Positions 13,133 to 35,611 of a stretch of 64,000 nucleotides of DNA are shown here, one piece after another. Positions within the stretch are counted from its first letter, which is position 1. Each line of letters begins with the position of its first letter. This DNA is from Tepidisphaeraceae bacterium (GTDB lineage: Bacteria; Planctomycetota; Phycisphaerae; Tepidisphaerales; Tepidisphaeraceae), in contig DASYHQ010000026.1 of NCBI GenBank assembly GCA_035998445.1, positions 62,001 through 126,000 on the forward strand, in the 5' to 3' direction. The notes beneath the pieces are model-generated. The model worked only from the letters and a program-made list of their open reading frames with translations. It did no database searches and was not told where the DNA came from. A program made the position numbers and the translations under genes.

Positions 13133-13162
13133 AGGGGCGACATCAACTGTCGCCCCTTTTTT
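13133..13162 (+). terminator. Rho-independent terminator after the LEPR-type gene
   Basis: Perfect stem AGGGGCGACA / TGTCGCCCCT with a TCAAC loop followed by six T residues, 50 bases after the stop codon at 13084. Confidence 0.9.
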
Positions 13163-13265
13163 GCGCGTCCCGAACTGCGAACGAGGCGACACAAGTGTCC
13201 CCCTGATCACCGAACCCCATTTGCTCCCCTTTCACGTAGGCGGGCTCATCGTTACCGTGGCGACG

Positions 13266-14195
13266 ATGTTGAACTTCCTCTGTGCCGTTCCAATTCTGCT
13301 GATTACCGCCCCGGCGCTGGCACAGGACGTCGGGACCGCCGCGATGACCCGCCCCACCTTCGAGCCGGCCCCGGCGACGACGCAACCCGCGGCGACCACA
13401 CCCACCTCGACCATGGCGGCCGACTCCACCTCGCCGGCAACGCACACCGGCTTCGTCGAGTTCCTCTCCAACCGGCTGGCGGCGTACGAGCCGATCTACT
13501 TCATCGGTGGGCCCGAACGCCCCAACGTCAAGTTCCAGTTCAGCCTGCGCTACCAGGTCATCAACGACGACGGCCCGCTCGCCAAGGCGTTCCCGCCCAT
13601 CAAGGGCCTGAACTTCGCCTACTCGCAGACGTCGTTCTGGGACCTGCAAGGCGAAAGCAGCCCGTTCCTCGACACCAGCTACCGCCCGGAGGTGCTGCTG
13701 CACTACGACGAGATCGTCGATCCCGACAAGCTCAAGCTCTTCTCCCGCATCGGCCTGCAGGCCGGCCTTCAGCACGAGTCGAACGGCCAGGAAGGTCTCG
13801 AGTCGCGCAGCGTCAACTACGCCTACATCCGCCCGATGTTCACGATCGGCGACCGCGAGGACGGCGGGTTCTTCATCACCCTCGCGCCGCGCGCCCAGAT
13901 CTACATCGGCGACCTCTCCGAGAACCCCGACATCCGCAAGTACCGCGGCTACGGTGACCTTCGCCTCATCGTCGGCCAAAGCGGTGGACTTCAGGCCGCG
14001 CTCATCGGCCGGCTCGGCAACGACTGGGAGAACGGCAGCATCCAGCTCGACCTGTCGTATCCGCTGCGCAAGCTGCTGTACGGCAACGTCGACCTCTACC
14101 TGCACCTGCAGGCCTTCAACGGCTACGGTGAATCGCTGATCGATTACGACGAGAGCGACACCGTCGTCCGCGCGGGCGTGTCGCTGGTGCGGTGA
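13266..14195 (+). CDS. pldA: Outer membrane phospholipase A (OMPLA)
   Basis: A 309-residue outer membrane beta-barrel that hydrolyses phospholipids from the outer leaflet. A signal peptide (MLNFLCAVPILLITAPALAQ) is followed by a Thr/Pro/Ala-rich linker (about 21-62) and then the barrel. The catalytic triad has the same spacing as E. coli PldA: H170-x-S172 in QHESNGQ and N184 in RSVNYAYIRP. The conserved GYGESLIDY motif lies near the C-terminus. Start chosen at ATG 13266 because it begins the signal peptide; no strong ribosome site is visible. Active OMPLA is a Ca2+-dependent dimer responding to membrane damage (family knowledge). The linker is longer than in E. coli. Confidence 0.93.
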   Translation: MLNFLCAVPILLITAPALAQDVGTAAMTRPTFEPAPATTQPAATTPTSTMAADSTSPATHTGFVEFLSNRLAAYEPIYFIGGPERPNVKFQFSLRYQVINDDGPLAKAFPPIKGLNFAYSQTSFWDLQGESSPFLDTSYRPEVLLHYDEIVDPDKLKLFSRIGLQAGLQHESNGQEGLESRSVNYAYIRPMFTIGDREDGGFFITLAPRAQIYIGDLSENPDIRKYRGYGDLRLIVGQSGGLQAALIGRLGNDWENGSIQLDLSYPLRKLLYGNVDLYLHLQAFNGYGESLIDYDESDTVVRAGVSLVR

Positions 14196-14292: not shown

Positions 14293-14326
14293 CCCGGTGG
14301 ACGACCAAAAGTCTAAAACACCCTCT

Positions 14327-14492
14327 AGCGCGGGTTATGCACTTTCGGGGTCAGAAACGCAGGCGTGACGGTGCTGGGTGCCACGGTTTGGTACGCCAAG
14401 CCGTGTTTTGCGTTTACCAGCACGGCTTGGCGTACCAAACCGTGGCACCCAAGCCAGTTTCTGAACGGGAACGTGCATAACACGCTTTTAGC
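14327..14492. repeat. Family B hairpin pair inside a larger inverted repeat
   Basis: The core at 14374-14453 is two inverted hairpins of GGTGCCACGGTTTGG-TACG-CCAAGCCGTG type. It is flanked by a second, unrelated pair of arms: GGGTTATGCAC ... GTCAGAAAC on the left and GTTTCTGAAC ... GTGCATAACAC on the right. The whole 165 bases can fold as one nested palindrome. Confidence 0.8.
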
Positions 14493-14645
14493 GTTGTCCC
14501 GCGCCCCCGCGACTCCTTCTGTCGCGCCGATTCGCGCCGCCTCAACCTATGCTCGCGCGCCCTGCCGATAATACCGCCGTTCTCGAACGGATAGCGCGGT
14601 TCCGCCCCGCCGCGATCCCCAATCGGGTCGATTTGAACCCCGTTT

Positions 14646-14834
14646 CATGCATGCGATTCCACTTTACATGCATGCAATTTCAAAATGCATGCATGCAATC
14701 GGCGTTTCATGCATGCAACTCCAAATCGCATGCATGCATTTTCGAGCCACATGCAGCAGACTCCCGATTGCATGCATGTTATCCGGACTTTGATGCATGC
14801 GTTTTCCGATCGCATGCATGCGATCGCCCCGTCG
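14646..14834. repeat. 21-bp tandem array of ATGCATGC palindromes (nine units)
   Basis: The octamer ATGCATGC, or a one- or two-base variant, starts at 14647, 14668, 14689, 14709, 14730, 14751 (degenerate), 14772, 14793 and 14814. That is a 21-base period with one 20-base step. The 12-13 bases between octamers vary freely. All three forward frames and some reverse frames read as seven-residue repeats as a trivial result of the period. Conservation is confined to a self-complementary core at two-helical-turn spacing, which suggests a protein-binding array rather than a coding repeat. It ends 110 bases before the serine hydrolase start. Confidence 0.9.
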
Positions 14835-14945: not shown

Positions 14946-16073
14946 GTGAACTTCCCAAAGACCATCAACCTGATCGAACAGGGCCTGTCCGACCGCCTGC
15001 ACGTCGGCGGGCAGCTGTTCATCTCGCGCGACAACGAAACCCTGATCGACCACGCCACCGGCATCGCGCGGGATGGCGTGCCGATGACGCCCGACCATCT
15101 GCATATCTGGATGAGCTGCACGAAGCCCGTCGCCGCCGTCGCGATTGGGCAGCTGTGGGAACGGGGCCAGCTTGGTCTCGACGACACGGTGGCTGCCCAC
15201 ATCCCTGAGTTTGGCGACAAGGGCAAGAAGACGGTCACCCTTCGCCATCTGCTGACGCACACCGGTGGCTTTCGGGCGGTGGCGAACAGTTGGAAGCCGG
15301 CGCCGGCCGAGCAGTTCCTATCCGACATCTACGCCGCCCGGCTCGAACCCGGTTGGACGCCGGGCAAGAAGGCCGGTTATCACGTCGCCAGCAGTTGGTA
15401 CGTGCTGGGCGAGATCGTGAGGCGGATCAGTGGCAGGCCGTTCGAACAATACGTGCGCGACGAGATTTTCGGTCCCTTGAACATGCCCGACTGCTGGATC
15501 GGCATGCCGCCGGACACCTACGACGCCTACGGCGACCGCATCGCGCTGATGTACACGACCGACACGAGCGACCCGATGCCCCACCCGCTCTGGAGCCTGA
15601 AGGACAACGCCACGATGTGCCGCCCGGCTGCCAACGGGTACGGGCCGGCGAGGCAGTTCGCGCGGTTCTATCAAGCGCTGCTGAACAAGGGCACGCTCGA
15701 CGGCACGCGCCTGCTGCAACCTCAGACGGTCGAGGCGCTAATCGCCCGCCATCGCACGGGCATGTATGACCACACGTTCCGCCACAACATCGACTGGTGC
15801 CTGGGCTTCATCCCCAACAACAACATCTACGGCTGGGAGACGCTGCCCTACGGTTATGGCCCCCACGCCGGCGCCCGCGCGTTCGGCCACGGTGGCCACC
15901 AGACCAGCGTCGGCATGGCCGACCCGGACAACGGCCTGGCGATCGTCCTGATCTTCAACGGCGCCCCCGGCGACGCCCGCCACAACGCCCGCATCCGCGC
16001 GACGATGGGCGCGATCTACGAAGACCTCGGCCTGGCGCCAGACGCGGTGACGGACGCACGATCACCGGCGTGA
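14946..16073 (+). CDS. Serine hydrolase of the class C beta-lactamase / esterase family
   Basis: A 375-residue penicillin-binding-protein-fold hydrolase without a signal peptide, so probably cytoplasmic. SxxK is S57-C-T-K60 (WMSCTKPVAAV). LLTHTGGF (102-109) and Y145 in GYHVASSWYVLGEIV fit the family, though the usual YxN Asn is not obvious. Near the C-terminus FGHGGHQTSVGMADP replaces the KTG-type triad with HGG. Such proteins are usually esterases or peptidases rather than antibiotic-resistance enzymes. The start is GTG 14946, with TAGAAT six bases upstream and no Shine-Dalgarno, so a leaderless mRNA is likely. The 21-bp array lies upstream. Confidence 0.85.
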   Translation: MNFPKTINLIEQGLSDRLHVGGQLFISRDNETLIDHATGIARDGVPMTPDHLHIWMSCTKPVAAVAIGQLWERGQLGLDDTVAAHIPEFGDKGKKTVTLRHLLTHTGGFRAVANSWKPAPAEQFLSDIYAARLEPGWTPGKKAGYHVASSWYVLGEIVRRISGRPFEQYVRDEIFGPLNMPDCWIGMPPDTYDAYGDRIALMYTTDTSDPMPHPLWSLKDNATMCRPAANGYGPARQFARFYQALLNKGTLDGTRLLQPQTVEALIARHRTGMYDHTFRHNIDWCLGFIPNNNIYGWETLPYGYGPHAGARAFGHGGHQTSVGMADPDNGLAIVLIFNGAPGDARHNARIRATMGAIYEDLGLAPDAVTDARSPA

Positions 16074-16093: not shown

Positions 16094-16346
16094 CGTCATC
16101 CTGAGAGGGTGTTTATTAAGTTTGGTCCCCTCTTCCGGTACTCCGGGAGAGGGTTAGGGTGAGGGTGATTTCGATCGACGGAAATCGTCAGCAGTTCGAA
16201 AGCACCCTCACCTAGCCTCTCCCGGAGTACCAGGAGAGGGACCGGAGCGAGCTCGCCGCGCGTAATAAACACCCTCTGAGGTACCCCGAAGGATCTCCCC
16301 CCCTATTACGTCTCGAAGAGATCCATCGGAGTACCTCAGGATGACG
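16094..16346. repeat. Composite nested palindrome: family D enclosing an AGGGTGTTTA element enclosing family A
   Basis: Outer arms CGTCATCCTGAG (16094-16105) and CTCAGGATGACG (16335-16346). Within the right side, a D hairpin pair GAGGTACCCCGAAGGATCTC / GAGATCCATCGGAGTACCTC (16278-16337). The left D arm is split from its continuation by AGGGTGTTTATTA ... TAATAAACACCCT arms (16106-16277). Those arms in turn enclose a complete family A pair (16124-16246). The GAG at the split is present on both sides. Confidence 0.8.
16124..16246. repeat. Family A paired-hairpin element, copy 2 (nested)
   Basis: Two facing CTCTCCCGG-type hairpins with GGTGAGGGTGATT tails, complete, enclosed by the AGGGTGTTTA arms of the composite element. 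Confidence 0.85.
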
Positions 16347-34230: not shown

Positions 34231-34320
34231 CGTAGATTGCCGATTTTCGATTGCCGATTTGCGGTTGGGTAACCATCGCTTCTCATCCAATCGCAAATTG
34301 GCAATCGAAAATCGGCAATC
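34231..34320. repeat. Family I inverted repeat, copy 1 (rplY-pth spacer)
   Basis: Arms are runs of GATTGCCGATT / TTTGCGATT words on the left, with their complements AATCGCAAAT and AATCGAAAATCGGCAAT on the right. The element begins five bases after the rplY stop and ends two bases before the pth ATG, leaving no room for a separate ribosome site. Confidence 0.85.
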
Positions 34321-35518: not shown

Positions 35519-35611
35519 GCCGATTTGCGATCTGCGATTGCCGATTGAAGAGGTGATCGTCCAAAGGCGGCGCTTTCCAATCGCAAATGGGCAATCGAAA
35601 ATCGGCAATCC
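35519..35611. repeat. Family I inverted repeat, copy 2 (rpsF-ssb spacer)
   Basis: Same GATTGCCGATT/TTGCGAT words as copy 1 and the same right-arm sequence CAATCGAAAATCGGCAATC. It starts nine bases after the rpsF stop and ends just before the ssb ribosome site GGAGG. Confidence 0.85.

Follow-up and report, generated by a model that had tools for sequence, protein, structure and literature searches.

What does an array of short palindromes, repeated every two helical turns in non-coding DNA, do in a bacterial genome? The question is raised by a locus in a 64,000-nucleotide stretch of DNA (the window) from a Tepidisphaeraceae bacterium. Inspection of the window sequence reveals nine non-coding units in register (Table 1), and both the register positions and TRF (score 67) agree with the preliminary description of this DNA, which had given a period of 21 with a single 20-base step. 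The same description held that the cores are conserved while the bases between them diverge, and this is borne out by a column identity of 0.92 in the core against 0.44 in the spacers (random-column permutation, 0/20000). Its self-complementary octamer was correct only in part: CATGCATG is palindromic and is the self-complementary octamer of the array, whereas ATGCATGC is not self-complementary, and exact copies of ATGCATGC occur in just seven of the nine units, the variants being CATGCAGC at 14750 and CATGCATGT at 14771. Some 122 bp separate the end of the array from the GTG start of the downstream serine hydrolase gene, slightly more than the 110 bases first given, and the array has no Rfam match.

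Table 1. Positions of the array, its cores and its surroundings in the window.
Feature	Position	Strand	Remarks
Nine-unit array, period 21	14646..14823	.	Unit starts 14646, 14667, 14688, 14708, 14729, 14750, 14771, 14792, 14813; inverted symmetry of whole array p=0.04, one uncorrected test
CATGCATG core of the array	14646, 14667, 14688, 14708, 14729, 14771, 14813	.	Exact copies
CATGCATG core variants in the array	14750 (CATGCAGC), 14792 (GATGCATG)	.	By sequence
Flank similar to that on the gene side of certain gene-linked arrays, lead only	14540..14575	-	GGTATTATCGGC...GTTGAGGCGG, reverse strand
Beta-lactamase-family serine hydrolase (PF00144), downstream neighbour, judged incidental	14946..16073	+	GTG start
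Phospholipase A1 family gene (PF02253), upstream neighbour, judged incidental	13161..14195	+	Domain match

The window array is probably a solo member of a large, apparently undescribed class of palindromic arrays phased at two helical turns. A scan for the core at about 21-base spacing, as had been suggested, returned 48 strand-matches in the 5.84-Mb host genome against none for a reversed control; nearly all are at 21 bp, the paired core occupies about eight loci, and an origin of the pattern by chance is excluded. The companion suggestion, that these loci might share neighbours, fared less well, as the neighbours of the CATGCATG core at the other loci, about seven in number, are unrelated genes (polA, dnaX and gyrB, for example), and no gene common to all of the listed CATGCAT-array loci across phyla was found. 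A broader scan scored self-matches at each lag over 1.664 Mb of the host genome, with genes called by a simple codon-usage script rather than a standard annotator. Non-coding tandem arrays in this sample fell mainly at period 21 (n=19) and period 20 (n=4); periods 19 and 22 were empty, period 23 had a single array, a few occurred at 12, 14, 18, 24, 25 and 32, and the arrays at remaining multiples of three lay mostly inside genes. Shuffled sequence contained no 21-bp arrays. The preliminary description had made helical phasing the key to this locus, and the genome's non-coding arrays indeed keep to periods of 20 or 21, with the adjoining values of 19, 22 and 23 all but absent.

The units themselves are diverse, with sequences such as CATTGTCCCCGGGGACAATG, AAACGGTCGACCGTTT and CGGAAGTTCCG, and CATGCATG is one core among many. 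Most arrays are homogenised over the whole unit, whereas the window array combines diverged spacers with 8-bp cores. Dyad symmetry was detected in 21 of the 25 non-coding arrays of period 20-21 by a column-shuffle test. These arrays therefore have repeat spacing at whole helical turns and, within the unit, a dyad-symmetric or conserved candidate site, both of which characterise protein-binding arrays. Considering that 20-21 bp corresponds to two turns of B-DNA and that dyad-symmetric units fit a dimer, protein binding would be favoured, and a predicted protein-binding array fits the period, the dyad symmetry and the non-coding frames better than the decayed duplication against which it was originally set.

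The arrays are linked to one family of genes in the host genome. Genes flanking several arrays proved to be diverged copies of a single protein, and the sampled DNA contains eight such copies, every one adjoining an array. A genome-wide profile search gave 26 family matches, two of them truncated at contig ends; an array lies upstream of 21 of the 24 complete genes, the main array is downstream of none (0/24), and three members have no array. The gene-linked arrays contain 7-23 units and lie mostly 100-400 bp from the gene start, with a unit sequence particular to each array. The 20-bp period, carried by four members, behaves as one change on the protein tree (1/500 shuffles), although the branch of the 20-bp clade is poorly supported (57/64). 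An uncharacterised family of 26 copies thereby gains its first functional clue, in a constant upstream array with a period that tracks a protein clade. Similar paralogues, however, do not have similar units, and recognition of the unit by the family protein is therefore no more than putative.

The family protein has about 230 amino acids; its N-terminal half is helical and includes a TR...KNxAR motif, and its C-terminal part is a beta sandwich. A weak model (mean pLDDT 59) and Foldseek hint that the sandwich could be Fn3-like. The protein has no recognised DNA-binding domain, 19 members gave no Pfam match and the family no PADLOC family match, and searches of NCBIfam and PHROG returned weak scattered matches, under the curated cut-off wherever one exists. 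For two representative linked proteins an origin in plasmids or phages was also considered and rejected, as neither had a match in a plasmid collection and one had none in a phage collection. Similar unnamed proteins are presumably present in planctomycetes and other phyla.

If arrays accompany family genes, where do the solo arrays come from? In a comparison of unit profiles, the best matches each joined a single gene-linked array to a single solo array with an equal period, and five separate pairs exceeded the null maximum. In one case (L382 and L245), a 360-bp block that includes flanking DNA is 83% identical, and the solo array there was therefore made by copying. Solo arrays are also organised differently: 8 of 16, including that of the window, are inverted about their centre against 1 of 21 gene-linked arrays (p = 0.002 for greater inversion by a second measure), and of the 20 for which the genes on both sides are known, 10 are flanked by a divergent pair, compared to 152 of 630 intergenic gaps. 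A parent gene was matched for few solo arrays, and within the host genome for none in the case of the window array, since no gene-linked array there has its exact spacer or full unit; the window's contig (C26) carries no family gene. The window array is an orphan copy, not specific to the neighbouring hydrolase.

How might array and gene work together? With about even confidence, we propose a gene-plus-cognate-array system, in which the array would be bound in its two-turn phase by the protein or a partner and would give rise to solo copies elsewhere. Each palindromic unit would be contacted from the same side of the DNA, once every two turns, by the family protein or by a dimeric partner, and the bound protein would then assemble along the array. 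Such an assembly could control its own family gene, and possibly also the genes beside solo arrays. In the window array, binding would occur through CATGCATG, which would be why its cores are kept while the spacers drift. Spread through the genome would be non-autonomous and REPIN-like, with some of the copies arranged as head-to-head pairs, and Y1 transposases may act as the mobilising agent. Should the proteins bind the arrays, the two would form a fast-evolving system of protein-DNA recognition; should the proteins spread the arrays, they would provide a new route to bacterial repeats. With some twenty natural protein-array pairs in a single genome, binding specificity, autoregulation and repeat spread are directly testable. 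The nuclear extracts suggested earlier for a pull-down or DAP-seq are inapplicable to a bacterial host (Planctomycetota, Phycisphaerae).

Perhaps the arrays are instead selfish REP-like repeats moved by Y1 (HUH) transposases, with the family genes serving as a favoured neighbourhood or as passengers. The solo copies, inverted pairs and block copying that we observe are what such elements would produce, and the host genome has eight Y1_Tnp matches, three of which (G000 C9:3231, C28:408 and C56:27353) have a family member no more than about 3.3 kb away. Considering that arrays accompany 21 of 24 family genes, however, it is difficult to see why a Y1 gene lies near so few of them, why two of the three members that are near one have no array, and why the array invariably occurs upstream of the family gene with units that vary from gene to gene. 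We regard this explanation as unlikely, and a Y1 transposase in the role of general partner is partial and not explanatory. A structural role, which we rate lower still, would have transcribed arrays form long mRNA hairpins or cruciforms, so that pairing is kept while the sequence is free to change, with the 5' region of the family gene as main client. Long hairpins are indeed predicted, with a z of -8 for the window array against base shuffles, but this signal falls to p=0.02 when only the spacers are shuffled and is absent on permuting spacer order. Likewise, double changes in the cores of two Odoribacteraceae arrays are all compensatory (6/6 and 7/7), while the overall comparison of compensatory with other double changes gives 0.45 against 0.45; with no general excess, base pairing is apparently not what is kept. 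Centre symmetry, commoner in solo arrays, is not a property of the gene-linked arrays, and a period of 21 rather than 22 favours B-DNA.

The remaining explanations concern the locus itself. The preliminary description had named an operator among the possible protein-binding arrays, and an operator of the adjoining serine hydrolase gene, bound by an ordinary transcription factor, would fit the position of the array upstream of that gene, its conserved palindromic core and its helical spacing. Such a role is highly improbable, as 18 homologues of the hydrolase from the same family as the host (at most 53% identity) have no 20- or 21-bp array and the same core stands beside unrelated genes elsewhere. 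We give even less credence to a neutral minisatellite or a coding repeat. Some CATGCAT arrays in other genomes do look coding, with MHxFxxV heptads seen by eye in palsa_967, and the preliminary description had named translation as a seven-residue repeat protein as an outcome to be checked by codon statistics. In the window array, however, the coding score is negative in every frame, compared to +95 for the real gene, and a reading frame would be interrupted at the 20-bp step. A minisatellite, for its part, would not be expected to keep its cores as the spacers drift, to hold a strict period or to be linked to genes on the upstream side only. The period, the gene link and the coding scores thus largely refute both.

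Among known systems, the gene-plus-cognate-array system would work most like REP and REPIN elements with their RAYT genes, although by our analysis it appears to belong to none of the families tested. Iterons and parS-type centromere arrays consist of sites in tandem, spaced at close to two helical turns, an arrangement that suits cooperative binding and that the present arrays share. Both had been put forward for the window array, but the arrays occupy many dispersed chromosomal loci with many differing unit sequences, and the linked protein is unlike any Rep or ParB family, so neither assignment could be sustained. The closest known systems are REP, BIME and REPIN sequences with RAYT (TnpA-REP) genes (PMC3733652, PMC3116915, PMC2817692). 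In both cases short palindromic intergenic repeats occur with a gene that has its own repeat type, and dispersed copies of the gene-linked repeat are found, partly as inverted pairs. The differences are equally clear: the linked protein here is not a Y1/HUH transposase (PF01797), the Y1_Tnp genes of this genome being separate from the linked family, and the arrays have a regular 20-21-bp tandem phase, lie upstream only, and accompany tens of paralogues with their own units. TIGR-Tas systems (PMC12045711) also have a tandem array adjoining a gene with long helices, but the present arrays repeat the whole unit, without a constant repeat and variable spacers within the array, and in the libraries searched the linked protein matched neither a nuclease nor a Tas-like family. 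The resemblance to CRISPR extends to palindromic repeats in regular arrays; the period of 20-21, the lack of unique spacers in homogenised arrays and the absence of adjoining Cas genes set them apart. No description of the array-gene system was found in the open-licence literature searched, and an earlier description is possible. Somewhat short of an even chance, in our estimate, the system represents a new class of bacterial element, in which a fast-diverging helical and Fn3-like family is combined with paralogue-specific phased palindromic arrays and satellite arrays, in Planctomycetota and possibly in Bacteroidota and Cyanobacteria.

The family extends well beyond the host genome: of 248 Phycisphaerae genomes, 52 have it, frequently with many copies each. 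In four other Phycisphaerae genomes, at loci found via the CATGCATG core and so not a random sample, a CATGCATG-type array lies upstream of an adjoining family gene in 4/4. Among the matches listed, the family was found in 6 of 30 genomes reached through CATGCAT arrays, including an Odoribacteraceae MAG, a Tannerella MAG and Oscillatoria PCC 10802, and in none of 30 further genomes reached via other matches listed in the CATGCAT scan; the contrast is suggestive of a link between the family and CATGCAT arrays, with the caveat that the two sets differ taxonomically. The loci fetched from outside Planctomycetota contained no confident family gene. The CATGCAT matches listed are mixed, with arrays from Nostoc, Paenibacillus and Tannerella and some that look coding among them, and membership of the class therefore cannot be read from the core by itself. 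Scanning for arrays outside the host genome covered samples of G013, G010 and G017; in 400 kb of G013, which belongs to the same family as the host and is without the genes, lag 21 shows only 7-bp-based repeats.

Several observations from these genomes stand apart. Two loci of the Bacteroidetes MAG palsa_967 (L151 and L171) carry 21-bp CATGCAT arrays in which the spacers, by eye, make up the heptad MHxFxxV, apparently as coding sequence. Symmetric double changes swap core palindromes within one array (CATGCATG/CACGCGTG, GATGCATC/GATCGATC and CATGCATG/CATCGATG) at L082 and L193 of an Odoribacteraceae MAG, L122 of a Myxococcales MAG, and L116 and L141 of Phycisphaerae MAG24. At Nostoc loci such as L085, L109 and L160, GATGCATC arrays with a period of 21 are numerous and have a spacer in common, and the one Nostoc genome searched, Nostoc sp. 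WHI, is without the linked protein family.

The DNA around the arrays has features of its own. A TTATCGG motif occurs in the flanks of 6 of 37 arrays, always on one side only, and GTTGAGG in the flanks of a few; CCTCAAC was rejected as a common boundary motif, as only few arrays have it. Of the 37 arrays, 17 have the 8-mer GGGTGCCA in their flanks, compared to 2.2 expected. A dispersed hairpin repeat of about 165 bp (GGTGCCACGGTTTGGTAC...), at 14324-14486 in the window, lies close to many arrays, with related copies near those of L375, L379, L392, L308 and L072. Elsewhere in the window, a MITE-looking inverted repeat (AGAGGGTGTTTATTA ... TAATAAACACCCTCT) was seen by eye at 16100-16280, and a 14-bp tandem repeat (CAATCGAAAATCGG, 2.4 copies) occurs twice, at 34288-34320 and 35578-35610, 1.3 kb apart.
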